IMG/VR virus record: IMGVR_UViG_3300020473_002132 | Span: 1-39,382 of that record | Reading direction: 5' to 3' (one strand) | Source of the DNA: a virus | Length of the DNA: 39,382 bases | Shown here: in pieces, positions 9,254 to 39,382 of the stretch | Position numbering within the stretch: position 1 is the first letter of the stretch | How the letters are laid out: every line of letters begins with the position of its first letter | Notes under the pieces: model-generated | The model's input: the letters and a program-made list of their open reading frames with translations, nothing else | Databases searched by the model: none | Told to the model about the DNA's origin: nothing | Program-made: the position numbers and the translations under genes

Positions 9254-10200
9254 ACCACACCCCTAATATTAGGATATTCTTTCAAAAACCATTCTATAGT
9301 TTGAGATAAACCATCCTCTATTCTAGTAACGCTGTTTAAATTATAGCCAAGAATTTTTAGCTTTTCACTAGAAGACGGCTTCCTTAATTGACCATTGGGC
9401 TTTTCCATATCCCATACAATTTGAATTTTATAACCAAAAATATCCCTAATTAATCTGGCGACTTTATTGATAGATATCTCCTCTATTGTGTTCCCTATAT
9501 TAATAATACCCTTAATTGGATAGTCTTGCTTCAATAAAAACGCAACTATTTTTGGTATATCATTAGCAAACGTAAATTCCCGCAAAGGAGTACCGGTGCC
9601 CCATAATTTCACCTCGCTATCACCAGACAACTTTGCATCATGCATTTTTCTAATTAAAGCAGGAATTACATGCGAGTTACTTAAGTCGAAATTGTCATTT
9701 ATTCCATATAGATTATTCGGTGATACGCAAAAATAATTAAACTGCTTTTGTTTATTAATGGCTCTAGAGTGTATGTCAAGCATTCTTTTAGAATATGCAT
9801 ACGCAAAATTTGAGTTATGTGGATGACCTAAATGTATTTCTTTTTCCTCTAGCGGAAATTCCGAATTATTAGGGTATACGCAAGTAGACAAAAAAGAAAT
9901 ACACCTCTTTATCCCAAAATGAGAGGCTGCATCTAACACGTTAATGTTTATCCTGGAGTTAATAGAGAAAAAATCAATTGGATTATTTATATTTGCCTCG
10001 ATACCACCCACCTTCGCCGCAGTATGGACGACTGCATCTACATTTAATTTAGAAAAATATTCAAATGTCTTTTTTCTATCACAAAGATCTATACCCCCAG
10101 AGGTTGGGCCATCCATTATTACCCACTCTATACCAGGAATGTTACAACTCTTAAATGCTGTACCTACTAAACCAGAACCTCCCGTAACTAATACTTTCAT
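9250..10200 (-). CDS. fcl: GDP-L-fucose synthase (GDP-4-keto-6-deoxymannose epimerase/reductase)
   Basis: A 316-aa extended SDR that would complete GDP-L-fucose synthesis by 3,5-epimerisation and NADPH-dependent reduction of the Gmd product. Key parts: the GGSGLVG nucleotide loop at 7-13; STCVYP at 105-110; YxxxK at 134-138; SPNNLYGINDNFDLSNSHVI, typical of Fcl; WGTGTPLREF; and a C-terminal KPNGQLRKPSSSEKL segment that closely follows the family (usually KPDGTxRKxLD...). It overlaps the upstream NeuA-like gene by ATGA and the downstream gmd by TTGA, giving a tightly coupled neuA-fcl-gmd series. The product probably feeds the GT11 fucosyltransferase further upstream in the same transcript. Confidence 0.92.
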   Translation of the reverse strand: MKVLVTGGSGLVGTAFKSCNIPGIEWVIMDGPTSGGIDLCDRKKTFEYFSKLNVDAVVHTAAKVGGIEANINNPIDFFSINSRININVLDAASHFGIKRCISFLSTCVYPNNSEFPLEEKEIHLGHPHNSNFAYAYSKRMLDIHSRAINKQKQFNYFCVSPNNLYGINDNFDLSNSHVIPALIRKMHDAKLSGDSEVKLWGTGTPLREFTFANDIPKIVAFLLKQDYPIKGIINIGNTIEEISINKVARLIRDIFGYKIQIVWDMEKPNGQLRKPSSSEKLKILGYNLNSVTRIEDGLSQTIEWFLKEYPNIRGVV

Positions 10201-10847
10201 GACAAACTTCTTTCATAAAGAATTTCTGCAATATCAAAATCGATCTGTTCATCAATATCAATTGACTGAATGTTGTCTAATATGAATGGATAAAAAGTAT
10301 TACCTATTATGCTTTTCTTACTTATTAATAAATCTCGCGGAATAATACTCACAGCAAAATTTAAACCCAAATAACCAGGTAAATCCTGTGAACGTGGGTG
10401 AGCTTTGGGATCATAATTAATAGCCTCCCCATTATGCCACAGATATTCTTTCACCATGTGTGTTGTAGTAATAGAGTCATATTTCGAGTCTAAATTTTTC
10501 CATAGATCGCAAATGTCTCTATATGTATCTACACCAACTAGTGGATTAGTAACGTTTGTATACACCACAATATCAGTGTCAATATTTTCTGCCATATTTT
10601 TCCATACTTCATTCATCGGAACAGTGCTAGACGCGTAATAAGAGTCCCTCTTTATAGGTGTTGCTCCTAACTTAGCAGCGATTGAAAGCATATAATCACA
10701 ATCAGAATTTACGCAAATTTCATTTATCGCTTCAACTCTCTTTAATTGATTAATTTTTATTTCTAATAAAGAAGAGCCAGCGAATGGCCTAATATTTTTG
10801 TTTATTACTCTTTGTGAACCTTGCCTTACTGGAATTAATGCTTTAAT
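10197..10847 (-). CDS. NeuA-like acylneuraminate cytidylyltransferase, apparent AUU start
   Basis: Cytidylyltransferase of the NeuA/CMP-NulO synthetase type, which activates a nonulosonate sugar with CTP. From the first in-frame ATG (10691) only 164 residues are coded and the catalytic N-terminus would be missing. Upstream in the same frame the expected sequence is present: IPVRQGSQRVINKNIRPFAG, the RxGSxRxxxKN nucleotide-binding motif, then VNSD. No ATG, GTG or TTG occurs between the in-frame TAG at 10859-10857 and 10691. An ATT codon at 10847-10845 lies exactly six bases after an AGGAG (10858-10854) and gives a 216-aa protein with the normal N-terminus. It overlaps the end of the GT29-like gene. 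An alternative explanation is an assembly or sequencing error that changed ATG to ATT. Confidence 0.8.
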   Translation of the reverse strand: MKALIPVRQGSQRVINKNIRPFAGSSLLEIKINQLKRVEAINEICVNSDCDYMLSIAAKLGATPIKRDSYYASSTVPMNEVWKNMAENIDTDIVVYTNVTNPLVGVDTYRDICDLWKNLDSKYDSITTTHMVKEYLWHNGEAINYDPKAHPRSQDLPGYLGLNFAVSIIPRDLLISKKSIIGNTFYPFILDNIQSIDIDEQIDFDIAEILYERSLS

Positions 10848-11649
10848 TTGCTTCTCCTAACAACATCATCGCGGTTTCGAAACTCTCATACCTAGGATCA
10901 CGTAATACTTCTTCCATGAATGGATCAACCTTTACTCTATTGTCTTTTTTCCATATCTCATTTTTAAAATATAAAAACTGTAAATCTGGATCATGATAAT
11001 CAGGATTTCCATCCGGGGTTTGGCCATCAGGGGAATTTACCATATTCGATATAGTGTCTTTCGTCCAAAGAGAGTTTAAATAACTGTCACGATATAATGA
11101 GCGATAAAAATCAATACCAGTAATATACAGTTCTGATATTGGTAATGATACTAAATCTATTATAGCAGAAAAACCAGCATTGGGTCTCATAGTCTTTTGT
11201 CTTATCTGCATATAGGGCTCGTCTGGCATAATCCTAACGTTAGTTAAGCTAGACATACCGTTTAACGCACCGGTGAATCTATGAAAAAACCATTCAGCAC
11301 TAGGGCAGGTCGAGATTACAACCTTTACATCATTTTGCAATATGTCAACTCTTTTTTGAATATTATTAGGATGCATTTGAATTATTTGTTTATCATTCTG
11401 AATGATAACTGTGTCACCGGGTAATATGTCATTTGTTTGCTCATTGTCAGTATAAAGAAAGTCCACTCTAGAACCGTGTGATTTTCTCTTCTCTTCCGGA
11501 ACGAAAAATGACTTTACCCTAGCGACATAATCGTAGCCGTCTATTAGCTCGCCCTGTTCATAAGCTAAAGCGCTTGCAGCTGGACCAACTAACGCGACAC
11601 GGGCGCCCTTAATAAACTCAACAAAGCTGTCATTTGTAATAAACGGCAT
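10843..11649 (-). CDS. GT29 sialyltransferase-like glycosyltransferase
   Basis: A 268-aa protein with the pattern of GT29, the family of animal sialyltransferases that use CMP-sialic acid. An L-motif-like segment lies at about 14-47 (ARVALVGPAASAL...IDGYDYVARVK). An S-motif-like segment is at about 154-182, with MRPNAGFSAIIDLV and LYITGIDFY, and a later YHDPD has His219 in the position of the family's catalytic VS motif. The gene immediately downstream encodes the CMP-sugar-forming NeuA-like enzyme, overlapping by five bases, which strongly supports a CMP-nonulosonate donor. The upstream epimerase stop forms a TAATG junction. GT29-like genes are known in some marine viruses and bacteria. The exact linkage is unknown, and the identification rests on motifs. 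Confidence 0.72.
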   Translation of the reverse strand: MPFITNDSFVEFIKGARVALVGPAASALAYEQGELIDGYDYVARVKSFFVPEEKRKSHGSRVDFLYTDNEQTNDILPGDTVIIQNDKQIIQMHPNNIQKRVDILQNDVKVVISTCPSAEWFFHRFTGALNGMSSLTNVRIMPDEPYMQIRQKTMRPNAGFSAIIDLVSLPISELYITGIDFYRSLYRDSYLNSLWTKDTISNMVNSPDGQTPDGNPDYHDPDLQFLYFKNEIWKKDNRVKVDPFMEEVLRDPRYESFETAMMLLGEAN

Positions 11650-12545
11650 TATTTAACTGCCTCATAAAATCTTTTTATTCCTTCCCGTAAAGAAACTTTT
11701 GGTTTCCAGCCAGTTGATTTTAGCTTAGAGCAATTTGCATAATTACCATGTTGATCTCCATCGTGGCCCCCTATATTTACAACCTGGAATTCTTCTTTTG
11801 GTCTTTCATGAGTATCTAGTATAACTTCTATTAAATTCTCGACTGTGGATGGGACACCGGTGCCTACATTATAGATCTCATTATCTGTTACTGATTTTAG
11901 CGATAGCTCAAAAGCGTCAATTACATCATCTATGTATATACAATCACGATATCGATCAAAAGAACCCGTCACTTTAATTACGTCACCGCTTAAAGATTGA
12001 GCCAAATAAATTGAAGCCATTCCTTGTCTCAGATTATCTAAATCCTGAGATGGGCCGTAGGTGTTAAACAATCTAAATATTGTATAATCCAAACCGTAAT
12101 TACTAAAGACCTTTATGTACAGTTCTCCCGCTAGCTTTGATACCCCATAATTAGAAATCGGATTTAGGGGATTTGATTCTGATAAATCTTTTCCTTCACC
12201 ATAGACAGCCATAGACGAAGCATACACAATCTTTTTTACGCCGGTCCTACGACAAAAATTGCATATATTTAAAGTGCCCTTGGCATTCCAGTCAACATCA
12301 TCTTCGGGTCGTATTAAAGAAATATATCCAGACGATTGAGCAGCTAAATGAAAAACTATATCAAAATTCCCTAAACCATCCAATGCTTCATAAACAGATA
12401 TATCGGCTGAATATTTTTTAAAGGAGTCATGACATTTCTTCCAGCGTGTATCGAAATCTAGTAAAGTAACATCGTGATCCCTATTCAGTCTATTCGCTAA
12501 TGCGAACCCTATAAATCCTGCACCGCCTGTTATCAAGATCTTCAT
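11649..12545 (-). CDS. NAD-dependent sugar-nucleotide epimerase/dehydratase
   Basis: A 298-aa extended SDR with ITGGAGFIG at 5-13 (NAD-binding loop), HLAAQ at 66-70, a serine pair near 110 and YxxxK at 133-137 (YGVSK), and the FNTYGP-type substrate loop. This pattern fits UDP-glucose 4-epimerase and related nucleotide-sugar epimerases (GalE, WbpP-like, or heptose epimerases); substrate cannot be settled. A GGGGTGAG element precedes the ATG. A 53-bp gap separates it from the SIS-HAD gene, one of the few spacers in the glycan island. It is coupled to the GT29-like gene by a TAATG junction, so it may prepare the acceptor sugar donor used just before sialylation. Confidence 0.85.
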   Translation of the reverse strand: MKILITGGAGFIGFALANRLNRDHDVTLLDFDTRWKKCHDSFKKYSADISVYEALDGLGNFDIVFHLAAQSSGYISLIRPEDDVDWNAKGTLNICNFCRRTGVKKIVYASSMAVYGEGKDLSESNPLNPISNYGVSKLAGELYIKVFSNYGLDYTIFRLFNTYGPSQDLDNLRQGMASIYLAQSLSGDVIKVTGSFDRYRDCIYIDDVIDAFELSLKSVTDNEIYNVGTGVPSTVENLIEVILDTHERPKEEFQVVNIGGHDGDQHGNYANCSKLKSTGWKPKVSLREGIKRFYEAVK

Positions 12546-12598
12546 AACTCACCCCTATATCCAACCATAACCATATTTAGAATCACACAAAAATTCAT
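12546..12598 (-). promoter_or_regulatory. Short intergenic gap with a possible late-promoter-like element
   Basis: On the minus strand this 53-bp AT-rich gap contains TCTAAATA at 12581-12574, one mismatch from the T4-type late -10 sequence TATAAATA, about 28 bases before the epimerase start. Because a gp55-like sigma is encoded in the window, this could be a weak late promoter that re-initiates transcription inside the glycan island. A single 8-mer in AT-rich DNA is weak evidence. Confidence 0.25.
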
Positions 12599-13576
12599 TT
12601 AAATTATGTTAAGTCCCTCTAGATTGCTCAAACATTGTTCCCATCCGCCAAACCTAATTCCCTTATCGTCTATATAGACAACTGCCCTAGGTTTTTCGGC
12701 AGTAACCTTGGTAATAAACTGATCCATGTCGTGCTTCTTTAACCAAGCCCATACTAATTCTATGCCGGTTTTGCCATTAACCAAACCTCTATCAGGCTTT
12801 GCTTTACATGTAAATAAAACTACGTTGTATTTTTGTGATAATATCTTAAGGGCATTCCGAGAGCCCTCTATAGGATCATCATAAATTGTGCCATCATAAA
12901 ACCCCATAGAGTTCTTATGAATAACCCCATCAAAATCAATGGCCAAATTAATCGTCTCATCAGGAAATGAATGCTTCCTAATTTTAGTACCTTTCCAATT
13001 CGGTTTTTCCAAATCCTCCGGCTTGTTTTTTCCTATCGACGGGCAGTTTCTACCAGATCCATGAGTTAATTGATATTGTAGTAATAGCGTTAATACTTCA
13101 CATGTATGATAATACTCTGTGTTTAAAGTAATGACGGTAAGCCCGGGTACTTTGACATTAATAGGTCGGCCTGTAACTAATACTGTCTGCATATTATTAT
13201 CAGAAGCCCACTGTAGGGCTTTCAATACATCAGTAGAGAGACCCGACGATGATATACCATATACCAATGATTTCTTTATTTGTGATGATGTTCGGACAGT
13301 TGTACGACAAGAGAGCCAGTTTACCATCCATTGATCGAAATTCGAATCGTTTATAAATGAAGTGGCTACGACACCAGAGCTTGGACACATTGCATTTTTT
13401 TGCCCATTTGATAATCTAGTAATATCTACTGCTGTATGATCTGCTATGGCGAGATTACCGCCATGACCTAAAACATATATATCGTTACAACTATTAAATT
13501 TCTCTTGAAATTCTGCCCACTCTGGAGAGTTCACTACATCCCAAAATTTTTCTTCCAAATTCTCAATATCGAACAT
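12599..13576 (-). CDS. Fusion of SIS sugar isomerase and HAD phosphatase
   Basis: A 325-aa two-domain protein. Residues about 1-180 are a SIS domain with the phosphosugar-binding loops GHGGN (37-41) and SSSG (109-112), like GmhA-type sedoheptulose-7-phosphate isomerases (which usually read GNGGS). Residues about 205-325 are a compact HAD domain: IDFDG (Asp214 nucleophile, Asp216 acid/base), the motif II Thr256, a Lys at about 295, and YIDDKGIRF with the metal-binding Asp pair 303-304. Immediately downstream of this gene in sequence, but upstream in transcription, the same two functions occur as separate genes. The fusion may channel an isomerised, phosphorylated sugar to its dephosphorylation step, as in GDP- or ADP-heptose synthesis. 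TGAGG lies before the ATG. The GHGGN change could mean a different sugar. Confidence 0.82.
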   Translation of the reverse strand: MFDIENLEEKFWDVVNSPEWAEFQEKFNSCNDIYVLGHGGNLAIADHTAVDITRLSNGQKNAMCPSSGVVATSFINDSNFDQWMVNWLSCRTTVRTSSQIKKSLVYGISSSGLSTDVLKALQWASDNNMQTVLVTGRPINVKVPGLTVITLNTEYYHTCEVLTLLLQYQLTHGSGRNCPSIGKNKPEDLEKPNWKGTKIRKHSFPDETINLAIDFDGVIHKNSMGFYDGTIYDDPIEGSRNALKILSQKYNVVLFTCKAKPDRGLVNGKTGIELVWAWLKKHDMDQFITKVTAEKPRAVVYIDDKGIRFGGWEQCLSNLEGLNII

Positions 13577-13589
13577 TACTACCTCAAAT

Positions 13590-13904
13590 TTATTTTAGGC
13601 CGGTGGCCCTTTTAAAATCCTCTACGTTTATAGCTTTATCGTCTACCAACAAATCATAGTGGGGTTTTCTATTCATTATTAGTTCGTGATACTTAACTCC
13701 CCATTCCTCTAATTGGCGTAGAGTTAAATCTGTATGGTCTATACCTGATGTACATCCTCGCGCAGTAAAGAAAATTATTCTATGACCTTCATCATAAAGG
13801 CTGTTTATCTTCTTTAGCATTTCCGGAAATGGTTGGGCTTTTTCATAGCTACTATTAAAGGTCAACGTACAAATAGTACCGTCTATATCAAAACAATAAA
13901 TCAT
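13590..13904 (-). CDS. Small HAD-family phosphatase (capsule/heptose type)
   Basis: A 104-aa minimal HAD phosphatase with no cap domain. Motif I is CFDIDGTIC (Asp6, Asp8), motif II FFTARG, and motif III/IV KPHYDLLVDDKAIN. Proteins of this size with FDIDGTIC and FTARG occur in capsule and LPS gene clusters, often beside SIS isomerases and sugar kinases, and probably remove a phosphate from a sugar bisphosphate (GmhB-like role). Its start shares a base with the stop of the GmhA-like gene (TAATG), so the two are co-translated. The next gene carries another HAD domain fused to a SIS domain. Confidence 0.83.
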   Translation of the reverse strand: MIYCFDIDGTICTLTFNSSYEKAQPFPEMLKKINSLYDEGHRIIFFTARGCTSGIDHTDLTLRQLEEWGVKYHELIMNRKPHYDLLVDDKAINVEDFKRATGLK

Positions 13905-14404
13905 TAAATCACCGCATGCAAAAAAATTAAATGTGTACTCTCAACGATACCATAATCGTCAGAATCAACATGAAAATCTAATAAAGCATCATTCGAAAAA
14001 TTTTTTCTCAGCTTATTATTTTCGTCAAATCCAGTTAATATCAAAAAAGGTACTTTAGCTTGAGTACAATAACGGGCCGACTCTAAAATATTTTCAGAAT
14101 TACCAGATGAAGAAACTAATACCACTAGGCTTTCTGATGTTGCGAAATGCTCTAAAAATTTCGCATAAGCAAAATCCCTACCATAATCGTTAATATAACA
14201 TGTCAACCTAGATGGATCTGAAAAGCTCTGTGCTTTTATGCCTAATGCCTTTGTGTAATCTTGTGATATATGGGAACAAATAGAATTTGAACCGCCATTT
14301 CCTATTAGATAAATCATGTCTCTAGACTTTAGTAGTTGAGACAAATCCTGTATTTGACTTTTGGTTATTCGCTTAATAGCTTGAGCCAAAATGTCCAGAT
14401 CCAT
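13904..14404 (-). CDS. GmhA-like phosphoheptose isomerase (SIS domain)
   Basis: A 166-aa SIS-domain protein. GNGGSN at 35-40 and SSSGNSEN at 98-105 bind the phosphosugar, and the end YGIVESTHLIFLHAV matches the C-terminal helix that carries catalytic Glu/His in GmhA. The expected reaction is sedoheptulose 7-phosphate to D-glycero-D-manno-heptose 7-phosphate. It is slightly shorter than E. coli GmhA (192 aa). The ATG at 14404 lies ten bases after AAGG; a GTG two codons earlier is equally possible. A kinase of the matching pathway lies just upstream and a phosphatase just downstream, in the order of the pathway genes. Confidence 0.85.
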   Translation of the reverse strand: MDLDILAQAIKRITKSQIQDLSQLLKSRDMIYLIGNGGSNSICSHISQDYTKALGIKAQSFSDPSRLTCYINDYGRDFAYAKFLEHFATSESLVVLVSSSGNSENILESARYCTQAKVPFLILTGFDENNKLRKNFSNDALLDFHVDSDDYGIVESTHLIFLHAVI

Positions 14405-14416
14405 TATCACATTACC

Positions 14417-15376
14417 TTAATATATTAAACTTTTAATACCATTATAGTCAATATTGATAGGAATTACAGTTGTGGAAAAATCTAACTCTATCTTGGATTG
14501 AGATGTATTATTTTCAGTAAATAAAAGAAAGTACCCACCATTTCCTGCGCCTACTAGGCGATGAGCTAGCACATAACTGGTGCTTTCTATTTTATTATCT
14601 AAAGTAGCTAGATATTGATTCCCTAGTATTGTTGAGGATATATTTTTTTTTATAGACCAGCCCTCTTTTATTATGTCAAAAAATAACCCTCTATCATTAT
14701 CATCTATAGCATGCTTCATAGAGTCTGCGTGGGATAACAGCCGCTTATCGATAGAGTCCTTTATTTTGTTTAGAACTATAGTCGAAGATCTTTTAAACCC
14801 AGATGGTAATAGGTACATCTTAAATGTATTAAAAAGCCTGGAGTCTAAATTTGTGGTCTCTACTTTTTTACCTTTTTTTAATTCATGAAAATTTAGGCCG
14901 CCGGTAGCTACGCCCCAGGGATCTTGAAATCCAGTAAGGGGGTTTATCCTTTTTTCTAATGACCAAGACCGCTCTATAATTTCATTTTTGGTTAGCCCCA
15001 AATTGTCTAATTCGTTTATTGCAGATACTAAAGCGACCATATACGACGAAGATGAAGCCAATCCAGATCCAGATGAAGATACATCTGCTGTGAACCAACA
15101 TTGTAGCGGATCTTTCGTCATTGTACTAATTGCAACACGAGCAATATCATTATTAATTTTATCTGAATCTATTACACTTTCTTTTTGGCTCCAGACTATA
15201 TTATACCTTTTATCGATCGCATTTTGACCGAAGCGATCACGAAACAAAGTGATATACGTATAAAGATTAACTGAAAATGATACTACCGCTCCTCGGCCGT
15301 GGACATCAATAAACGATGATAAATCAGTTGAGCCGCCGGCGATTGATATTCTTAAAGGACATTTAGAAATAATCAA
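14417..15376 (-). CDS. HddA-like D-glycero-D-manno-heptose 7-phosphate kinase (GHMP family)
   Basis: A 319-aa GHMP kinase. The N-terminus CPLRISIAGGSTDL is the classic start of HddA-type sugar kinases. SSGSGLASSSS at 101-111 is the phosphate-binding loop, and VGAGNGGYFLLF near residue 288 is motif 3. The likely reaction is ATP-dependent 1-phosphorylation of heptose 7-phosphate, the step after GmhA. The start codon is TTG at 15376, chosen because the family's conserved N-terminus starts there and the upstream GT4 stops two bases before it. No guanylyltransferase (HddC) is present in the window, so the last step must be encoded elsewhere or by the host. Confidence 0.87.
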   Translation of the reverse strand: MIISKCPLRISIAGGSTDLSSFIDVHGRGAVVSFSVNLYTYITLFRDRFGQNAIDKRYNIVWSQKESVIDSDKINNDIARVAISTMTKDPLQCWFTADVSSSGSGLASSSSYMVALVSAINELDNLGLTKNEIIERSWSLEKRINPLTGFQDPWGVATGGLNFHELKKGKKVETTNLDSRLFNTFKMYLLPSGFKRSSTIVLNKIKDSIDKRLLSHADSMKHAIDDNDRGLFFDIIKEGWSIKKNISSTILGNQYLATLDNKIESTSYVLAHRLVGAGNGGYFLLFTENNTSQSKIELDFSTTVIPINIDYNGIKSLIY

Positions 15377-29805: not shown

Positions 29806-31095
29806 TCAGAGAATATTGGATGCCATTGTTGCTAAATTTGATCTCTGTCCATGTGGGATATGAACATGAGCAGCTAGGTTTGTTCTTTTAAATCTATCCA
29901 CTATAATAGATAATCCATTTGAGACCTTATCAATATAAGGGGTATCTATTTGGTCTGTATCACCCAATAATACTATTTTTGAATTTTTACCCACTCTAGT
30001 AATTAACGTTTTAAGCTCATGAACAGTTGCGTTTTGCGCTTCGTCAACAATAACAAAAGAATCATTAAAAGATCTACCTCTTATAAAGGCTAAGGGGGCA
30101 ACTTCAATTTGACCTTTGTCTTTCATCGCCTCGAAATATGTTATATCGTTAAACATAGTTTGGAAATTATCTTTTATTGGCGCTAACCAGGGATCCATTT
30201 TTTCATTTAAGTCCCCGGGTAGAAAACCAATATCATTACCCACTGTCTGGATTGAGCGACTAATAATTATTCTGCTATATTTTTTGCTCATTGCTCCATC
30301 CATTGCAGCCATTAACGTCAAGAATGTTTTTCCCGATCCTGCTATCCCAGTTAGCGTAACCAGTGGTATATTGGGCTGCATTAAAGCGTCAATCGCAAAA
30401 CTTTGCTCTTTATTTTTGGGGGAAATTTTTGCGATACCCCCTGGAGGACCGACAAGCTTATGCAAAAAATCACCCTCATATCTTGCTATAAAGCTAGAAT
30501 GTTCCCCTTCGTTTATTAAAGCATATTCATTTGGGAACATACCACTCTCAGTAAAATGAAGTTCTCCGTTTTGATAAAAATTATCTACATCTTCTTTTTC
30601 TAGTGTGATTTTATGATAACCGGAGTAATCGACGTCTTCACTGGCAATATGGTCCTTGTAATAATCCTCAGAGCGTATCCCTAAAGCATCGCATTTAACT
30701 CTTAGATTAATATCCTTCGTAACTAATATAATTGTCTTATTGGGGTGCTCTCTTCCCTCAGAAAGAGTCGCTGCAATTATTAAATTGTCACCAGCATTCC
30801 CGGCTAGCCCGAATGGCGCCGCATGATCACCTATTATAACCCTTATTGTTTGATCTCTTGAAAGCTCTTTTGGAAGCTTCACTCCCTCATCTAAACGCCC
30901 AATGTCTCTAAAACTATCTAAAAGTCTATTAACGTACCTAGCTGATTCTCCAACCACGCCAGGTTTCTCTTTAAATCTGTCAAGTTCATCTAGAACCTGC
31001 AGAGGTATTACCACATCGTTTCCATGGAAAGAATGAATGGAGGTCTTGTCATATAAAAGTACATTGGTATCCAATATAAACGTTTTTCTTTTCAT
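29806..31095 (-). CDS. phoH: PIN-PhoH ATPase (PhoH2-type)
   Basis: A 429-aa fusion of a PIN-type RNase domain with a PhoH ATPase. PIN: ILDTNVLL (Asp9), LDELD (Glu37), AGDNLI (Asp103) and TKDINLR (Asp128) give the acidic metal site. PhoH: GIAGSGKT at 250-257 (Walker A), VIVDEAQN at 348-355 (Walker B), and GDTDQIDTPYID as the following sensor region. Bacterial PhoH2 proteins act as RNA helicase/RNase pairs. PhoH is among the most frequent host-derived genes in marine phages, with an unsettled role in infection. A very good ribosome binding site (AAAGGAGA) precedes the ATG. It is divergent from the plus-strand regulator across 74 bp. Confidence 0.93.
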   Translation of the reverse strand: MKRKTFILDTNVLLYDKTSIHSFHGNDVVIPLQVLDELDRFKEKPGVVGESARYVNRLLDSFRDIGRLDEGVKLPKELSRDQTIRVIIGDHAAPFGLAGNAGDNLIIAATLSEGREHPNKTIILVTKDINLRVKCDALGIRSEDYYKDHIASEDVDYSGYHKITLEKEDVDNFYQNGELHFTESGMFPNEYALINEGEHSSFIARYEGDFLHKLVGPPGGIAKISPKNKEQSFAIDALMQPNIPLVTLTGIAGSGKTFLTLMAAMDGAMSKKYSRIIISRSIQTVGNDIGFLPGDLNEKMDPWLAPIKDNFQTMFNDITYFEAMKDKGQIEVAPLAFIRGRSFNDSFVIVDEAQNATVHELKTLITRVGKNSKIVLLGDTDQIDTPYIDKVSNGLSIIVDRFKRTNLAAHVHIPHGQRSNLATMASNIL

Positions 31096-31821: not shown

Positions 31822-32283
31822 TTACAACTCTGTGTCCGCCACAAAGGGCTCTATGTTAAATCGATTATTGCCTATATAGGTCAAGAATTTACCTTGAACC
31901 TTCCCCTTGATTTCATCTTTTGTGATCACAATTTTTTCGTTTACTTTTTCATGATTAAGAATGAATGATACTTGTTCCCAAATATAAAGTTCACAATCAT
32001 AGCTGTTCAATATATCTGCAACGCTTGACGGAAGCATTAAACTAAAGTCTTCTTTCGTCGGCAGACTGCTTAATGATTCATGACCCGTTGCAATTTCTGA
32101 TCGACATATGTCGAAGACTCTATGTACAATACCACAATTATTACATTGGGCAAATTTTTCAAGAACATTATCAACATCGTCGACTATAGAAAAGACAACA
32201 AACTTATGATATGGTGGATCTTTTATTTTTTTATATTGTGGCAATATGCACTGGCATTCTATTAAATGCTTTATACCATCCAT
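31822..32283 (-). CDS. Cys-motif (zinc-ribbon-like) phage protein of unknown function
   Basis: A 153-aa protein with paired cysteines CQC (10-12) and CNNC (47-50), plus Cys60, which could form a zinc knuckle in the N-terminal half (FAQCNNCGIVHRVFDIC). The C-terminal half mixes helices and beta strands and ends with a hydrophilic tail. No enzymatic motif is seen. The ATG at 32283 is preferred over the ATG one codon earlier because AAGGA lies six bases before it; the earlier one would leave only three. It lies between a YkuK-type RNase H-like gene and a small helical protein. Function unknown. Confidence 0.75.
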   Translation of the reverse strand: MDGIKHLIECQCILPQYKKIKDPPYHKFVVFSIVDDVDNVLEKFAQCNNCGIVHRVFDICRSEIATGHESLSSLPTKEDFSLMLPSSVADILNSYDCELYIWEQVSFILNHEKVNEKIVITKDEIKGKVQGKFLTYIGNNRFNIEPFVADTEL

Positions 32284-32317
32284 CATGTATCCTTAAATTT
32301 TAAAAATTTTAAGTCAG

Positions 32318-32779
32318 CTATTTTGCATGTAAATCAGCAATAGATGATGATGCCCAAGATATGGGTTTCATTCTACAACCAAAACCCATCGCAATAATCC
32401 ATTGTCTTGCTTGCTCATAGACAATGTTGCTTTTATTTTTTTTATTTTCGCTAATATCTGCATGCACAAAAATTTTACGATTCGGATTTACCAATTCTCT
32501 AACTAGCGTTGCTATTTCTATAGAGTCTTGGACTTCTTTTAATAGCCTTGATGAAAGTCCTATTCTGTATTTGTTATTTTCGAATGTTCTTTTGAAGAAA
32601 TATCTTGAACATTCGCCTGGGGCATACACGGCTATAACTGTCGCAAATATTAGCTTACCTGATTTAAAGTGAGAATCAGTACCGACATGTATTTGTGAAG
32701 AAGGATATTTCTTTATGACATCAATAATTTCTGGAATTTCAAATTGTCGACCAATAGAATTTTTCCATTTAATATTCAA
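32318..32779 (-). CDS. YkuK-type RNase H-like protein (DUF458)
   Basis: A 153-aa protein matching the DUF458/YkuK family, a predicted RNase H-like fold of unknown biochemical role. Evidence: IHVGTDSH with Asp35 near the N-terminus, KIFVHADISENKKNKSNIV in the middle (the second Asp), and the C-terminal KPISWASSSIADLHAK, close to the family's KP(H/D)SxAASxxADKHxK ending. Length is normal. The start is TTG at 32779, two bases after the previous stop, as no ATG exists in frame near it. It may process nucleic acid, but the family has no settled function. It is tightly placed between the chaperonin-like gene and the Cys-motif gene. Confidence 0.82.
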   Translation of the reverse strand: MNIKWKNSIGRQFEIPEIIDVIKKYPSSQIHVGTDSHFKSGKLIFATVIAVYAPGECSRYFFKRTFENNKYRIGLSSRLLKEVQDSIEIATLVRELVNPNRKIFVHADISENKKNKSNIVYEQARQWIIAMGFGCRMKPISWASSSIADLHAK

Positions 32780-32780
32780 T

Positions 32781-33989
32781 TTATCGCTCTAACCTTATGA
32801 GACAACCTATATTAATTATTTTGCTTAGTAGTGTTTCTGCTTCTTTTAGTGATCTTGACACTGCGTAGGCTGGGTGTAAGTGGAGGTCAAGACCGGTTTC
32901 ATTATTAACATTTATACCTGACAGCTCAAGAAAGTCATCGTTTGATATAAAGCCGCAGGTGGCGATTTGTTGTAGCATACTTGAAAAAAAGTTTAATTGA
33001 TCAAATATAAACCCTCTTTTATTCCACGTTTTTTCATTTAATAAAATTGTTGTGCGCGCGCTATGCGAAAGATCTAAGAGTTTACTCTTTAGAAATACTT
33101 CACTTCTATTAACCAAGACAGAAACACCTAATTCACCGCAAGCCTCGTAATTATTTAATAATCTTCCAGTCACAAATCCGTAAGTAGGGATATCAAGAGA
33201 TCTCTTGATTTTTGGTAAAATATCGTCCCAAAAACCATGAGCAGGTTCAGCGACACAAACCTTACACTTTCCTAATTCTAAATTTACCGCGCATGTATTT
33301 AATACATCATGACTAGCACCTTTAGAAAAAATTAAAAAAGAAGTATTATTCTCCATTGACATATTCAAGATAAGATTTAATTCCGATACGTCGTTAATAA
33401 ATCCGTCATATATCACTATTTGCGCATTTTCAAAATTAATTGATTGTCTAGTTTTAAAAAACGCCGAATGAAAATTACATTGTATTGACATTCCTGATTC
33501 AAATATACAAGCATTTTGAAAGCTATTAGATTTTTTAATATCAAAATTCGACATAAAACCGTTATTCTCGAAAAACCTAAGTAGATCTTCTGGTTGCAAT
33601 AAGCTAGAATAGGAAAAATGCTCTTTTAATACTGTCTTTATAGACGCAGAGTTATTATTCGCCGGCTGAGCTATATTGGTTAATTCTGAGTTATTAGGGA
33701 CGTTGCCTTTATTTCTTAACGCATTTAGCATAAATGGAAAATATGCAACAGCCGCCGGGCTATACGATTGCAACGATTCTATCTGAGATATTAACAAATC
33801 CCTAATCTGTATATTCGTAAAGCTAAAATCGATTATTGCCCTATAGGTCTCTGCAAATGACGTGTTACAGATTTCTTCTACGCCAAAGTAGACCATTTTT
33901 TGAGATTTTTGCTGAATACAAAAATCATTTAGTTCTTCAAAAAAAAGATCGATCTCAGCCCTGGCAATATATGATGGGATTGCTAGCAT
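32781..33989 (-). CDS. Highly divergent GroEL-like protein, apical/intermediate part only
   Basis: A 402-aa protein that I read as a very divergent chaperonin relative. Residues about 164-313 follow the GroEL apical domain step by step: FESGMSIQ...FFKTRQ (GroEL VEGMQFDRG...YF), QIVIYDGFINDVSELNLIL (ILLADKKISNIREMLPVL), SFLIFSKGASHDVLNT (PLLIIAEDVEGEALAT), KVCVAEPAHGFWDDI (KVAAVKAPGFGDRRK), and LDLSHSARTTILLNEKT (LGQAKRVVINKDTT). Residues about 75-140 resemble the neighbouring intermediate segment. The ATP-loop GDGTTT is absent, the catalytic Asp398 position seems replaced, and the protein ends where the C-terminal equatorial domain should begin. So it probably binds substrate or a partner rather than folding proteins by ATP cycles. 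No clear ribosome binding site. It follows PrkA and a small membrane protein. Confidence 0.68.
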   Translation of the reverse strand: MLAIPSYIARAEIDLFFEELNDFCIQQKSQKMVYFGVEEICNTSFAETYRAIIDFSFTNIQIRDLLISQIESLQSYSPAAVAYFPFMLNALRNKGNVPNNSELTNIAQPANNNSASIKTVLKEHFSYSSLLQPEDLLRFFENNGFMSNFDIKKSNSFQNACIFESGMSIQCNFHSAFFKTRQSINFENAQIVIYDGFINDVSELNLILNMSMENNTSFLIFSKGASHDVLNTCAVNLELGKCKVCVAEPAHGFWDDILPKIKRSLDIPTYGFVTGRLLNNYEACGELGVSVLVNRSEVFLKSKLLDLSHSARTTILLNEKTWNKRGFIFDQLNFFSSMLQQIATCGFISNDDFLELSGINVNNETGLDLHLHPAYAVSRSLKEAETLLSKIINIGCLIRLER

Positions 33990-33992
33990 TTT

Positions 33993-34238
33993 TTAATGTA
34001 GGTTGCTTTTGTCTTTTGTGCCCATACCGGCAGCCAAGCCAGTTAAAATATTCGTAAAGTTCTCTGCAGCCCCTTCGATCTCTCTTGCGGTTGCTTGCTT
34101 TTCGCTATACTTAACACAATATCTAAAAAAAGAGCCCAAGACCCCTAGTGATAATGTTGCGATTGCTAAGTTTAGATTTGAAAATGCCATAATAGATGAT
34201 GCTAAGATTAGAACCTCACTAGCTCCGATGTCTTTCAT
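33993..34238 (-). CDS. Small membrane protein in the PrkA block
   Basis: An 81-aa protein with two hydrophobic helices at about residues 8-25 and 27-45 (VLILASSIMAFSN, LAIATLSLGVLGSFF), followed by a charged, Ala-rich tail (QATAREIEGAAENFTNILTG). It overlaps the end of the PrkA gene by four bases (ATGA) with GGAGGG before the ATG, so it is made in step with PrkA. It could be an anchor for the kinase block or a holin-like protein; no lysis genes are visible nearby, so the latter is only a possibility. The start at 34238 is preferred over an in-frame TTG four codons earlier. Confidence 0.75.
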   Translation of the reverse strand: MKDIGASEVLILASSIMAFSNLNLAIATLSLGVLGSFFRYCVKYSEKQATAREIEGAAENFTNILTGLAAGMGTKDKSNLH

Positions 34239-36163
34239 GAATCCCTCCAAAGGTTATTACTGGCGTATACTAAGATTTCCTCAGCAGACTCCTCTGTATA
34301 ACCATAATCATCTATCATCGTTTTTACCATATTATTGTACTTTTTCTTTTGCTTATCATCTCTAGTCTTGGATTTAGTGACGATCCTAGCCATGTCTTTT
34401 ACGCTGTTAATTAAGTAACTTTCAATGGCTTCTTTAAGAGGCTCATAACTTCTATAGTCTATTGTTTCACCTCGACGTACTTTGGCGAACATATATGCAG
34501 TAACGTCAGATCTAAATCCATCCTTAGAAGAGCCGACTATACCAATACACTCTTCAATTGTGGACATAAACTTTTCATCGGGCTGCATTTCTTCGTTTGT
34601 AACTCGATCCTTGATCTTGGTCTTCATAGCAAATGCTTCTGCATTATCTAGATAGGTTTCAAATAACGACTGCGCTTGTTCTTCATATGCTGCGACGAAA
34701 GCTTTAGCGATTTCATTTTCTAAAATTCTAAGATATTCTTTTCTCACAACATCTTGTAGAATAGTTAAGCACTCCTGCTTGAACGCTTCATTAACGATTT
34801 GCTCCTTACAGTTCTTTGCAATTGTATCCATAATGGATATTGGTGTTATAAAGCCCTTGTCGCTATCTGAGAGGGCGCAATCAATTGATTTCATAATAAA
34901 CCTAGTAGAAATACCGTCCATGCCCTCATGGGTTGCTTCTTCCCTTAAATCTTTTATGTCAATTTTCTTCACTCGACCCTTCTCTATTACATCTTCACCA
35001 TTATAGATCTTCATCTTTGTTAATGGATCACACTTGCCCGAAGGCTTAAGTCTAGACATCACGCTAAACATAGACGCGATTCTTAGAGTGTGTGGAGCAA
35101 TATGGCTGTCAAAACTTGATCTAGCTAAAAGCTTTTCGTATATCTTAATTTCTTGATCGAGCTCTAAAACATAAGGGACGTTTACCTTAACAACTCGATC
35201 AATAATAGCCTCATTAGTATGCTCACTTTGAAACCGATTCCATTCTGCTTCATTACAATGTGCTATAATAACTCCATCAAAATGAATCATGTCATGCTTC
35301 CCAGGAGCAGGTACTCTTTTTTCTTGAGTCGCTGTAATAATTGTATGCAAAAATTCAATCTCATTTTTAAAAAGCTCTATGAACTCTACTATTCCGCGGT
35401 TACCAATATTGAACGCGCCATTAAGGGATAAGACTCTTGGATCATCCTCTGAATAAAGATCTAATTTTGAAATATCTTCTGATCCGATTAATACGGATAC
35501 GTCTTGCGAGTTGGCGTCCATTGGTGGCACAGATGCTATACCTCTTCGGCCTCTTTGAGAGAATGTTGTTTCTAATATTTCGAAATCTTCATAACGACCA
35601 TCCATCTCCTGTAACAATTGATACCGAATTGGTGGTGAGATATCTCCTTCAATTTTTACGTTTAATTCATCTTCAAATGCTGAACGAATACCTCTAGGAA
35701 TAAGCTGTAATGGGTTCCCCTTTTGTGGATCACCATTAATGTGAAAATAACTAACACCATCTAATGATGACTTGATATGCTCTGTAAGGGCTGACTTTCC
35801 TGCACCAACTGGTCCCATTAATAATAAGACCTGCCGTGACTCTTCGCCTCTGGCTGCAGCCGACTTTAGGAATCTCATTACCTTAGAAATAACGCGCTCT
35901 GATCCAAAAAACTCATTCTTAAAATAGTCGTAGATCTTAATATTCTCGCCATCGAATATTTTGTTTTTTCTAGAATCACTATCCTCCATTATAGAAACAC
36001 CGTGGCTTACCAGCGTATCATATAATTTTTTATGAGCAGGATCGGCTACGCTGGGTTCATCTTTTACCAGCTCTAAAAAGTCAAGAAAGTTTCCTTTAAA
36101 TTTTTCTTTTTTAACTTTTTTTCTTTGTTCTTCTATTAGTTTTAAAAAGCTCTTTTTACTCAC
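34235..36163 (-). CDS. prkA: PrkA-type serine protein kinase/AAA ATPase
   Basis: A 642-aa protein of the PrkA/YeaG family, full length compared with bacterial members (631-644 aa). The AAA part has GPVGAGKS at 117-124 (Walker A) and downstream YFHINGDPQKGNPL, GIRSAFEDEL, and the family stretch EEATHEGMDGISTRFIMKSID in the middle. The C-terminal part corresponds to the kinase-like domain. In bacteria PrkA acts in stress and stationary-phase signalling and is encoded with YeaH and often SpoVR. The start is GTG with AGGAG six bases before it. The preceding SpoVR gene ends nine bases earlier, and the following membrane-protein gene overlaps by four bases. The presence of the full partner set suggests a working system rather than a stray capture. 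Confidence 0.92.
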   Translation of the reverse strand: MSKKSFLKLIEEQRKKVKKEKFKGNFLDFLELVKDEPSVADPAHKKLYDTLVSHGVSIMEDSDSRKNKIFDGENIKIYDYFKNEFFGSERVISKVMRFLKSAAARGEESRQVLLLMGPVGAGKSALTEHIKSSLDGVSYFHINGDPQKGNPLQLIPRGIRSAFEDELNVKIEGDISPPIRYQLLQEMDGRYEDFEILETTFSQRGRRGIASVPPMDANSQDVSVLIGSEDISKLDLYSEDDPRVLSLNGAFNIGNRGIVEFIELFKNEIEFLHTIITATQEKRVPAPGKHDMIHFDGVIIAHCNEAEWNRFQSEHTNEAIIDRVVKVNVPYVLELDQEIKIYEKLLARSSFDSHIAPHTLRIASMFSVMSRLKPSGKCDPLTKMKIYNGEDVIEKGRVKKIDIKDLREEATHEGMDGISTRFIMKSIDCALSDSDKGFITPISIMDTIAKNCKEQIVNEAFKQECLTILQDVVRKEYLRILENEIAKAFVAAYEEQAQSLFETYLDNAEAFAMKTKIKDRVTNEEMQPDEKFMSTIEECIGIVGSSKDGFRSDVTAYMFAKVRRGETIDYRSYEPLKEAIESYLINSVKDMARIVTKSKTRDDKQKKKYNNMVKTMIDDYGYTEESAEEILVYASNNLWRDS

Positions 36164-36171
36164 AGCATCTC

Positions 36172-37476
36172 CTAAATTTCGAATGGCTCATGTTCTATTA
36201 CTGTATCTAGTCGAACAACACCACCCCATAATGTAGTAATATAATCGACTACCTTCTCTGCGTAACCTAATTCTAGATCTCTTCCATCATGTTCATGATG
36301 GATTCTTAACACGTTATTTGCTTTAAGCTCTTTAACAATGATTTTTGGTATCGAATTTGATCCAATTTGTTTTATTAAAGATGACTTTATCTCTTTCCAA
36401 CCTTCATCATCAGAAATTTCATTAATAACATAATCTTTTTTATACAATGAATATGAAAATAAGTTTAATTCATAGCAGTCTTCTTTTGTTAAATATTGTC
36501 TAAGAAATGATTCATCGTGGCATACTTCTCTAGCTATAAAGCATTCTTCTAACCCGTATCTTTCTTCTATTTTATTAAACATATAAAACCCAAGATGGTA
36601 TGGGTTGATCCTACCCAAGTGCGGTCTAACAACTTGGTTGTGGCTTTTAAGAAACGGAATATGGTATTTTTGAGGTAAATCTAGTTCGTGCATTAACCTG
36701 TAATGCCAAAAAGATGCCCACCCTTCGTTCATTATCTTAGTCCTAATTTGGGGCATGAAATACAACGATTCGTTTCGAACGATGTTTATAATATCACGCT
36801 CCCACTCTTCTAGATTAAGAGCCATCTCAGATATAAATCCCAATAAATCAATTTCGTCCCCGATAGGAAACTGATCTGGATTTTTATCTTTTACCGATTC
36901 ATCACCTGATTTTATTCTATGAATTAGGTCTTTTCGTCTGTCTTGATGTGGAATATACTCTTTACAGTCTGGGGGAACATTCATCGATAAAGCATGCGCG
37001 GCGTCAAGTATTCTTTCAACTTTCTCTATTCCAATACTAGGATCTTCTATATAAGAATCAATTCTTTTTTTAGCGTTCTTAAATCTTTGGATAATATTTT
37101 CTGGTCCTGTTTTAGAAAACGTTAGATTATTTTTAAAGAAATCTGAATGCCCAACGCAATGGCACATGATTAATAATTGCAAATAGAATGGGTTCTCCCG
37201 CATTAAATATGCTATTGATGGATCACTATTAATAATGAGCTCGTAAGGTAAGCCTTCCGCACCTAGGTTATACATTTGATGCGTTCTTTCAAATGACTTT
37301 CCATAGCTCCAATGACGGTAGTGAAGCGGCATACCGTGATATGCCATATTTCCAATCATAGCGTAATAATCACAAATCTCGTAAGATATTGGGAACCAAT
37401 CTAGGTTATGAGACTTAGCTAATTCAATAATTTTGTTATCCCATTTTTCTAAATCATTTACATTCCAGTCACTCAT
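36172..37476 (-). CDS. spoVR: SpoVR-family protein (YcgB-like)
   Basis: A 434-aa SpoVR-family protein. Motifs read along the chain: ISYEICDYYAMIGNMAYHGM near the N-terminus, FERTHQMYNLGAEGLPYELI, LIMCHCVGHSDFF with the His/Cys cluster, IMNEGWASFWHYRLM, and HEHDGRDLELGYAEKVV near the end. It is somewhat shorter than E. coli YcgB (510 aa). The molecular role of SpoVR is unsettled; in many bacteria it is co-encoded with PrkA and YeaH. The ATG at 37476 follows GGGGG and overlaps the YeaH stop by eight bases, so the two are translated together; an in-frame TTG four codons earlier is disfavoured. Confidence 0.93.
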   Translation of the reverse strand: MSDWNVNDLEKWDNKIIELAKSHNLDWFPISYEICDYYAMIGNMAYHGMPLHYRHWSYGKSFERTHQMYNLGAEGLPYELIINSDPSIAYLMRENPFYLQLLIMCHCVGHSDFFKNNLTFSKTGPENIIQRFKNAKKRIDSYIEDPSIGIEKVERILDAAHALSMNVPPDCKEYIPHQDRRKDLIHRIKSGDESVKDKNPDQFPIGDEIDLLGFISEMALNLEEWERDIINIVRNESLYFMPQIRTKIMNEGWASFWHYRLMHELDLPQKYHIPFLKSHNQVVRPHLGRINPYHLGFYMFNKIEERYGLEECFIAREVCHDESFLRQYLTKEDCYELNLFSYSLYKKDYVINEISDDEGWKEIKSSLIKQIGSNSIPKIIVKELKANNVLRIHHEHDGRDLELGYAEKVVDYITTLWGGVVRLDTVIEHEPFEI

Positions 37477-38641
37477 TAAAACCCCCAAAGAATCTCTGAA
37501 AAGCTAACCAGACATCATCCTTATTTCTAATTTCAGCTATTTTAAAATTATCTTTCACCAAAGGCGCAAATAGCTCTGAGAGCTGTGACATTGTCATCCA
37601 GCTACCCCGGCCCTCTCGAGGTTCTATTTCGCAATATCCAAAAAACTGACTCAAGTGTGATAACTTTCTAGCGCTTTTAATTGCGCCACCATTATCTTCA
37701 GGCCAATTGTCTCCATCTGAGCACTGAAATGTATATATGTTCCATGCGTCTGGATGATACCTCGTTTCTATAATATCTAGGCACTTATCCAAACCGGTAG
37801 ATACCAATGTCCCACCGCTTGATCCTTTTCCAAAAAAATCATCTTCTGATACTTCTGCTGCAGCTGTATCATGAGCTATAAAACAATGTTCTGTATTTTC
37901 ATATTTCGATCTAATAAAGTGATAAAGTAGGAAAAAGAAACTACGGGCTAAAAATTTCTTTTCTTTCGTCATTGATCCAGATATATCCATTATAAAAAAT
38001 ATTGCGGCATTAGACGTGGGTTTTTTCTTTTCCTTTATAAACTTGTATCTTAAATCATCGTGATGAAAACCAAAACGTTCTTCAGAGTTAGGGTCAAAAG
38101 TCTTGTTTTTTATAGCCTTCTTTTTTCTTTTTATTTTCTTTTTAATCGTTTCTTTTTTATCTAGCCTAGGTCGTATACCTTCATTTCTATAACCATGGCG
38201 CTTATAGGTGTCGCTTGATATATTTTTGAATTTTTTCTTTTCCATATTGGGAAGCTTAAAATGATCAAACAAATACGCAGACAATTCCTCAAGAGTAATT
38301 TCGACTTCGTAAAATTCTTCTCCCTTTTCATTTCCCGCTTTATTCGGCTTTCCTGGAGATCCTTTGTCTTTTTGGCCAACCCTTTGCCCTCTGGCTACAT
38401 CTTTGCCCTGGGCTGAACCTACATTCTTTTTGTTTTCGTTATCCCCATAGACGAACCGATATTCTTTTATTCCCTTAACAGGAATACGGATCTTCTTTTT
38501 GCCGTCCTGCCCTATGATTGATTCGTCAGCAACAATATCGTGGATCCCTTCCTTTATTGCTTTTTCAATCTTTTCTTTATGTCTCTGTCTATCTGAGCCA
38601 GATCGATCAGAAACGTTTTTATTTTCTTTGAAGGTAGACAT
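37469..38641 (-). CDS. yeaH: DUF444 / YeaH-type VWA-domain protein
   Basis: A 390-aa DUF444 protein (YeaH/YhbH), the usual partner of PrkA. The N-terminus is basic and lysine-rich with RIPVKGIKEYRFVYG. A linker at about 70-110 is rich in Gly, Lys and Gln. The C-terminal half is a von Willebrand factor A domain, with DISGSM at 219-224 (MIDAS metal site) and FFGKGSSGGTLVSTGL as the second loop. VWA domains commonly work with AAA ATPases, here the PrkA product, in assembly or remodelling. The start codon lies inside a 16-bp perfect palindrome and has no Shine-Dalgarno sequence. It overlaps the SpoVR gene. Confidence 0.93.
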   Translation of the reverse strand: MSTFKENKNVSDRSGSDRQRHKEKIEKAIKEGIHDIVADESIIGQDGKKKIRIPVKGIKEYRFVYGDNENKKNVGSAQGKDVARGQRVGQKDKGSPGKPNKAGNEKGEEFYEVEITLEELSAYLFDHFKLPNMEKKKFKNISSDTYKRHGYRNEGIRPRLDKKETIKKKIKRKKKAIKNKTFDPNSEERFGFHHDDLRYKFIKEKKKPTSNAAIFFIMDISGSMTKEKKFLARSFFFLLYHFIRSKYENTEHCFIAHDTAAAEVSEDDFFGKGSSGGTLVSTGLDKCLDIIETRYHPDAWNIYTFQCSDGDNWPEDNGGAIKSARKLSHLSQFFGYCEIEPREGRGSWMTMSQLSELFAPLVKDNFKIAEIRNKDDVWLAFQRFFGGFNE

Positions 38642-38665: not shown

Positions 38666-39085
38666 CTAAAATAGGAAAATATAATTTTCGAATTGTTTTA
38701 TTGCTGCCGCAAGAAAGCCAGACGTATTTTGTTTAAATTCTGATGTTGTGACCCACTTTAGCCCAGAGTGTTCTAAAATATTCGTGTGTGGGTTCTTTGT
38801 GATTTTGGGCTTTTGAGTTGTTCGCGCTGTGAAGACTATTAGCTTCCCACTTGAGATTGGAGGGACTGATTTTATTAAGTCAGAGTTTTTAATTTTTAAT
38901 CCGCACTCTTCGAAACATTCTCTTTTGGCACAATACAAGAAGCTTGGGTCTGTTTTGTCAAGGGCGCCCTTCGGTAAATCATAAGAGCCATCATGATTAA
39001 TCAGCGCTAGTATTTTTTTATTTTTTTTCCCTTTAACAATAATAAATCCAGCCCCAGATTTTGGTCCTTTATCTTTACCTACCAT
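38666..39085 (-). CDS. NUDIX hydrolase
   Basis: A 139-aa NUDIX protein. The catalytic box is clear in RECFEECGL, following SYDLPKGALDKTD; it differs from the canonical Gx5Ex7REUxEExGU by one extra residue and an Asp in place of the first Glu. Such enzymes hydrolyse nucleoside diphosphates linked to another moiety (dNTP clean-up, Ap4A, ADP-ribose or NDP-sugars); the substrate is not readable. The ATG at 39085 is chosen because GAGG lies six bases before it; in-frame ATGs up to 39115 exist but overlap the cupin gene further. A 24-bp gap follows before the YeaH gene. Confidence 0.87.
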   Translation of the reverse strand: MVGKDKGPKSGAGFIIVKGKKNKKILALINHDGSYDLPKGALDKTDPSFLYCAKRECFEECGLKIKNSDLIKSVPPISSGKLIVFTARTTQKPKITKNPHTNILEHSGLKWVTTSEFKQNTSGFLAAAIKQFENYIFLF

Positions 39086-39382
39086 AATCATCCTCGATAC
39101 GAATGACATCTTCAAGCTCTTTTGTACTAACTTCTATTAGAGTGCACGCACCGTTATGCGCACAAAATCTATGGATTGTACCAGGTATAATATGGAATGT
39201 ATCATTTGCACTTAGGAATAAAATGCCGTTGTTTAATACAACTTCTAACTCTCCGTCTAGTACCAGAATTGTTTCTTCTTTTTTTTCGTGCTTTTGTAAT
39301 GACAGCCTATGCCCTTCATTTATATGAATTATTTTTCCAACATATCCATCAACCCTATCGGAAAATGCCCATATTTTTTCAA
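39075..39382 (-). CDS. Cupin-domain protein, mannose-6-phosphate isomerase type II-like (partial)
   Basis: The 5' part of this gene is beyond the right edge; the first full codon is at 39380. The visible 101 residues form one cupin barrel: SLQKHEKKEETILVLDGELEV (the first cupin motif with the HxH/E metal ligands partly changed), then DTFHIIPGTIHRF (the second motif with His), ending in TLIEVST. This resembles the C-terminal half of type II phosphomannose isomerases and related sugar-metabolism cupins, and a role in GDP-mannose supply would fit the gmd gene, but small stand-alone cupins have many functions. It overlaps the NUDIX gene by 11 bases. Confidence 0.75.
   Translation of the reverse strand, partial: EKIWAFSDRVDGYVGKIIHINEGHRLSLQKHEKKEETILVLDGELEVVLNNGILFLSANDTFHIIPGTIHRFCAHNGACTLIEVSTKELEDVIRIEDDYGR

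Follow-up and report, generated by a model that had tools for sequence, protein, structure and literature searches.

The locus analysed here raises the question whether a phage protein of 402 residues with GroEL-like segments is what is left of a chaperonin or a subunit that is maintained for a role of its own. It is encoded in a virus record of IMG/VR (IMGVR_UViG_3300020473_002132), the whole of which, 39,382 bases, was analysed and is called the window in the following. The gene in question is listed below.

32781..33989, minus strand: compact ATP-site-less GroEL paralog (the short form, P0001), 402 aa; from ORF call, GroEL homology, AlphaFold2 and Foldseek

Homology and predicted fold

The minus-strand reading frame at 32781-33989 is intact. 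Its product P0001 recovered an ancestral GroEL (E 3e-4) and other Cpn60s when compared with PDB chains by phmmer, with nearly all matches confined to residues ~144-256, equivalent to GroEL ~168-282. Against PHROGs it matched 'chaperonin groEL' (E 1.4e-3), while against Pfam nothing convincing was named. A profile built from the short-form family recovered GroELs in the PDB at E 5e-38, the matches listed being group I GroEL/Hsp60. The relationship to GroEL, which an earlier note had proposed by eye, was thus confirmed by phmmer, PHROG and family profile, and from the phmmer span it follows that the alignment made by eye was correct in its decisive part. The apical landmarks named there have equivalents in P0001, namely FESGM (163-167), IVIYDGFI (191-198), FLIFSKGASHDVLNT (218-232) and KVCVAEPAHGFWDD (243-256), but the quoted strings themselves belong to GroEL and are not literally present. 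Across the family, the PHROG groEL profile matches 43 of 52 short forms, and Pfam Cpn60_TCP1 (PF00118) matches none of the 52 at E 0.01.

The extent of the homology was larger than anticipated by the earlier note, in which only GroEL residues 130-420 were assigned and the C-terminal equatorial domain was considered missing. Aligned by hhalign with full-length GroELs, the short-form profile covers GroEL 131 to 527 (E 1.9e-24), and the last ~31 residues of P0001 (HPAYAVSRSLKEAETLLSKIINIGCLIRLER) correspond to GroEL ~495-527, so that the equatorial domain keeps its C-terminal end. The first ~105 residues were modelled as the N-terminal equatorial half. AlphaFold2 with the family alignment yielded a P0001 model with pLDDT 93.2 and pTM 0.79, and for the relative L048 these values were 94.0 and 0.85; Foldseek aligned both models with GroEL over ~530-540 columns (E 8.5e-18 for P0001, 1.5e-27 for L048). 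Structure prediction and profile-profile comparison, the checks suggested beforehand, therefore recovered the GroEL fold, and sequence and fold homology to the group I chaperonin (GroEL/Cpn60) family spans all three domains, instead of the apical and intermediate regions alone. As modelled, the short form is a reduced three-domain chaperonin subunit with degenerate N- and C-terminal equatorial parts. An apical-only fragment was ruled out by the structure prediction together with the profile alignment reaching GroEL 527.

Compared with the ~540 aa of GroEL, short forms of typically ~400-460 aa have lost residues 108-128 and most of 416-491. These deletions are internal, with GroEL 108-128, 416-434, 441-465 and 474-491 gone in most short forms, and P0001 additionally lacks most of 340-372. 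Strands E5-7, E33-35/E40-42 and E396-398 of the P0001 model occupy the positions of the N-terminal strand, the stem-loop hairpin and the C-terminal strand of GroEL. The latter three elements join adjacent subunits of the GroEL ring, and their counterparts in the short form may still make subunit contacts. The L048 model reached a TM of 0.76 to GroEL/Hsp60 in GroES-bound football complexes (8wuc, 4pj1) versus only ~0.43 to apo GroEL, and the P0001 model displayed a similar trend at lower values (best TM 0.61, for 5opx, versus ~0.4), where it should be noted that AlphaFold2 may favour remembered GroEL states. The short form is hence predicted in an elevated, GroES-bound-like (open) shape, in which it would stay in one fixed state and not cycle.

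The ATP site and the apical face

Residues were counted in an alignment of 72 distinct short forms with 14 full-length phage GroELs and E. coli GroEL; a 52-row alignment of short forms was too divergent for pattern scans. Asp87 is absent from all 72 short forms, Asp398 is kept in a single one, GDGTT or GDGTS occurs in none, and Gly32-Pro33 is mostly deleted. All 14 aligned full-length phage GroELs keep Asp87, Asp398, GDGTT/S and Gly32-Pro33. The GroEL ATP pocket, taken as TLGPxG, Asp52, GDGTTT with Asp87, Asp398, GGG at 414-416 and Asp495, is not found in the short forms, for which GroEL-type ATP binding or hydrolysis would, as read from these residues, be impossible. The earlier description of a protein that has lost the GDGTTT loop and the Asp398 equivalent and has no ATP cycle hence agrees with the 72-row alignment, where pocket loss speaks against a cycle of the GroEL type. 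We consider it almost certain that the short form is a chaperonin paralog devoid of the ATP site.

The apical domain, correctly recognised as retained in the earlier note, is the best conserved part of the protein with a mean of 1.56 bits per column compared to ~0.95-1.08 elsewhere. Conservation peaks at helices H and I; apical positions that are kept include Asn265 (72/72), Glu/Asp257 and Gly225 (71/72 each), Glu232 (67/72) and Leu237 (62/72). The GroEL residues that bind substrate and GroES include Tyr199, Tyr203, Leu234 and Val263, and these positions are mostly polar or small in the 72 aligned short forms. When the set is extended to Tyr199, Tyr203, Phe204, Leu234, Leu237, Leu259, Val263 and Val264, most short forms keep only Phe204 and Leu237; the hydrophobic apical substrate-binding face of active GroEL is absent from them. 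Since the face is conserved yet less hydrophobic, a defined partner is favoured over promiscuous binding of unfolded chains.

The short-form family and its gene neighbourhood

With P0001 alone as query, one relative, L002, was found, which shares 67% identity and has an identical gene order. The phage PrkA encoded next to P0001 was used as a first bait and returned 80 loci, over whose ORFs a P0001-seeded HMM was iterated. This revealed 71 chaperonin ORFs of two kinds: short forms of 373-467 aa (contig-end-cut copies aside), nearly all directly downstream of prkA, and complete GroELs of 537-546 aa at other positions of the locus. A second bait (A5), made of short forms only and free of PrkA, added loci without the PrkA block. 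The homolog search proposed in the earlier note thus arrived at 72 distinct short forms of 373-497 aa, all from uncultured phage contigs. Among named phages, tblastn gave no relative of P0001, and no short form was found in 50,697 phage records with P0001, L048, L074, L116 and L109 as queries; the named-phage matches each covered less than 80% of the query, the annotated ones being called GroEL/chaperonin and two unannotated ones that were read being full-length GroELs. One GTDB scan with one subclade, whose reach is limited to close relatives, gave no cellular relative.

Size and deletion pattern are maintained across the short forms, and rough dN/dS values amount to 0.15-0.4 where dS could be estimated, dS being near or beyond saturation; as far as the sequences indicate, the short forms are under purifying selection. 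A maximum-likelihood tree of 60 sequences, which contained no group II chaperonins, places all short forms on one side of a single branch with a support of 100/100, and the short forms accordingly share one origin. As the branches are long, only this split is used; the branch to the short forms measures 2.6 changes per site and the tree gives no GroEL parent. Mean pairwise identity over 47 loci is 20% for the short form, 42% for g154, 54% for PhoH, 59% for SpoVR and 73% for PrkA, rendering the short form the fastest-evolving among the genes compared. An apical mini-chaperone standing on its own, or a relic left by the decay of a full GroEL, both of which were considered in the earlier note, would likewise account for the missing ATP site, the internal deletions and the low identity between members. 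We regard either as highly improbable, given three domains that are kept in reduced form, uninterrupted reading frames of comparable length in 72 distinct sequences, and one origin, one deletion pattern and purifying selection. The mini-chaperone idea is weakened further because Tyr199, Tyr203, Leu234 and Val263, which would bind substrate, are mostly replaced, and the term relic does not describe a family of 72 intact-size relatives, the conservation of which rules out decay.

The annotated genes around P0001 in the window are, read along the minus strand:

38666..39115, minus strand: NUDIX hydrolase (Pfam NUDIX 1.1e-8), first block gene seen in the window
37469..38641, minus strand: DUF444 (YeaH-like) protein, 390 aa (Pfam DUF444 5.4e-109)
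36172..37488, minus strand: SpoVR-like protein, 438 aa (Pfam SpoVR 5.4e-120)
34235..36163, minus strand: PrkA (AAA+ serine kinase / ATPase), 642 aa (Pfam AAA_PrkA 1.4e-129, PrkA 6.4e-77)
33993..34250, minus strand: g85, small hydrophobic protein, 85 aa, between prkA and the short form (ORF call)
32318..32779, minus strand: RNase H-like protein of 153 aa (Pfam RNaseH_like 1e-23), the next gene after the short form
31822..32286, minus strand: g154, 154 aa, with CxC ... CNNC cysteines (alignment and synteny)
29806..31095, minus strand: PhoH-like protein (PHROG PhoH 1.4e-101), last gene of the conserved block

Most PrkA-bearing loci have this block, NUDIX-DUF444-SpoVR-PrkA-g85-short form-(RNase H-like)-g154-PhoH, in common with the window, single genes being lost in some. 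In most of these loci prkA is followed immediately by the short form, often with a ~28-nt overlap or with only g85 between them; in the window g85 shares 16 nt with the end of prkA, and related ORFs occupy this intervening position in 38 loci. This small protein contains a hydrophobic stretch and has a weak PHROG match to an Rz-like spanin. g154 has no Pfam match, its CxC and CNNC cysteines being conserved in a 72-row g154 alignment.

The proximity to prkA could be explained by an adaptor function for PrkA-SpoVR-DUF444, in which the apical-like face would hand clients to the AAA+ protein PrkA as the source of the lost ATP-driven step. The pairwise identities of the short form additionally track those of PrkA (r 0.83), for which linkage alone could suffice. 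However, loci found without the PrkA bait have g154 and PhoH near the short form while the PrkA block is not nearby, four short-form-bearing records of 119-324 kb contain no PrkA gene, and in G025 and G038 prkA lies more than 100 kb from the short form, which again adjoins g154 and PhoH. PrkA is therefore a frequent but dispensable neighbour, and it also occurs without the short form, as in the 361-kb contig G036. Weakened as the main reading by the second-bait loci and by whole records without PrkA, the adaptor function is unlikely. The steady neighbours of the short form over all lineages seen are g154 and PhoH.

The bacterial PrkA-SpoVR-DUF444 trio (34235-38641 of the window) is conserved in many uncultured phages, and the PrkA of the window was matched by only 16 of 50,697 named phage records. 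In G036 (the contig of L062) the trio is present, and neither a short nor a full-length chaperonin was found. Further along the window, positions 8282-15376 hold a phage sugar-nucleotide gene cluster with a GDP-mannose 4,6-dehydratase (gmd) above the NCBIfam cut-off, GDP-L-fucose synthase-like, sugar epimerase-like and heptose-7-phosphate kinase-like proteins and two sedoheptulose-7-phosphate isomerase-like proteins, interspersed with several glycosyltransferase-like ORFs as read from their translations.

Co-occurrence with complete GroEL and possible roles

All ten short-form contigs of at least 190 kb (G012, G017, G025, G033, G038, G042, G046, G058, G061 and G062) also encode a full-length GroEL, as does the 119-kb contig G055; of these eleven contigs, four were recovered independently of a PrkA bait. 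The full-length GroELs of G012, G017, G033, G042 and G046, which were read entire, have intact GDGTTT and Asp398 regions. It should be noted that these cases all fall in one related phage group and therefore do not represent ten independent events. Short-form contigs of 80-140 kb, which are fragments, contain a full-length GroEL in only one of nine cases, and the 211-kb contig G039 has a full-length GroEL and no short form. Since contigs of the window's clade reach only 66 kb and the window itself 39 kb, the complete GroEL of the window's own phage is one that we infer. Screening with the short-form profile detected a second, short chaperonin copy in none of nine chaperonin-bearing named or deposited phages (Vibrio 2.275.O, Va1, immuto, DAC19, 144E46.1, EL, AR9, OBP and LR756501). 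The GroES family (PF00166, Cpn10) had no match in 48 records, and GroES for these phages may be supplied by the host. In Vibrio phage Va1 (L126), the full-length GroEL gene (501-2081) is flanked by T4-like genes for the tail sheath (gp18) and the tail tube (gp19).

We propose that the short form works together with the GroEL of its phage as a partner subunit that does not depend on ATP, a reading to which we assign a probability of roughly 45% and which is best supported because every near-complete short-form genome also encodes a complete GroEL. The protein would be a dedicated pseudo-chaperonin, a GroEL paralog reduced to ~400 aa with the three-domain fold kept and no GroEL-type ATP use, which could join phage GroEL in mixed rings or act as a cap or adaptor. 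Contact with GroEL or a few defined phage proteins would be made via the conserved, more polar face of helices H and I. Against such a partnership, the short form is block-linked to g154 and PhoH, and in one sublineage to PrkA, but not to groEL, the two genes not having been seen side by side, and evolution far faster than that of the neighbouring genes (mean identity 20%, PrkA 73%) is unusual for a ring subunit. More tentatively, and with considerable doubt, one could envisage a two-component chaperonin in this giant-phage clade, in which an ATP-driven GroEL and a permanently open, ATP-free paralog form mixed rings or a capped complex with a folding chamber adapted to phage proteins, which does without a phage GroES.

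Two further roles were weighed against the GroEL partnership. The short form could work free of GroEL as an independent ATP-free holdase, forming a ring or oligomer of its own in which certain phage proteins are held, perhaps together with g154. Ring-contact strands that seem to be kept in the P0001 and L048 models and the position next to g154 and PhoH instead of groEL are compatible with this, but the mostly polar or small residues at Tyr199, Tyr203, Leu234 and Val263 are not expected of a holdase and the full-length GroEL in every near-complete genome would be left unexplained, so that we rate it as rather unlikely. Alternatively, the short form could enter host GroEL rings or occupy GroES, redirecting or blocking the host machine. 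A specific contact under pressure would be in line with the fast evolution and with a helix H/I face that is conserved although more polar; the phage's own GroEL, however, would meet the same poison, and co-assembly with host GroEL is doubtful at such divergence. The decoy suggested in the earlier note is thus conceivable in principle, but other readings fit better, since a full-length GroEL is made by all ten near-complete short-form phages themselves, and we judge it quite improbable.

With group I GroEL/Cpn60 the short form shares homology and domain order, helices H and I, mostly kept Asn265, Glu257, Leu237 and Phe204, and a fold predicted in the GroES-bound state, while the entire nucleotide pocket is missing and most substrate-binding hydrophobics are replaced. 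Chaperonins of the EL/AR9/OBP type are likewise phage-encoded subunits with a diverged apical domain. The phage EL chaperonin, however, is an active ATPase, whose authors report high conservation with GroEL for the nucleotide pocket alone (PMC7185714); in the short form the situation is reversed and the pocket is lost. The short-form profile matches neither EL nor AR9, and OBP weakly in a 521-aa frame. The nearest case, in terms of a comparable way of working only, is given by the vertebrate BBS-type proteins (MKKS/BBS6, BBS10, BBS12), diverged paralogs beside a complete chaperonin, with a differentiated Gly-Asp-Gly-Thr motif in MKKS and BBS12 (PMC2846930); they belong to the eukaryotic group II lineage, show no such shortening and are of independent origin. 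T4 gp31 and GroES offer a functional analogy, gp31 as a phage protein that modifies chaperonin work with no ATP site of its own, but their Cpn10 fold of ~100 aa is unrelated to a GroEL fold of 402 aa.

No description of the short-form family was found in the open literature searched, and a comparative overview of 224 jumbo phages uses 'chaperonin' once, for Hsp10, and PrkA, SpoVR and GroEL never (PMC7824862). Libraries and literature searched yielded no prokaryotic or viral account of a chaperonin paralog that lacks the ATP site, is shrunk by about a quarter and is kept group-wide beside an active GroEL. A large protein family is missed by the Pfam chaperonin model. In the short form, subunit shape and contacts would be uncoupled from the chaperonin ATPase, and why certain giant phages need two chaperonins becomes a testable question.
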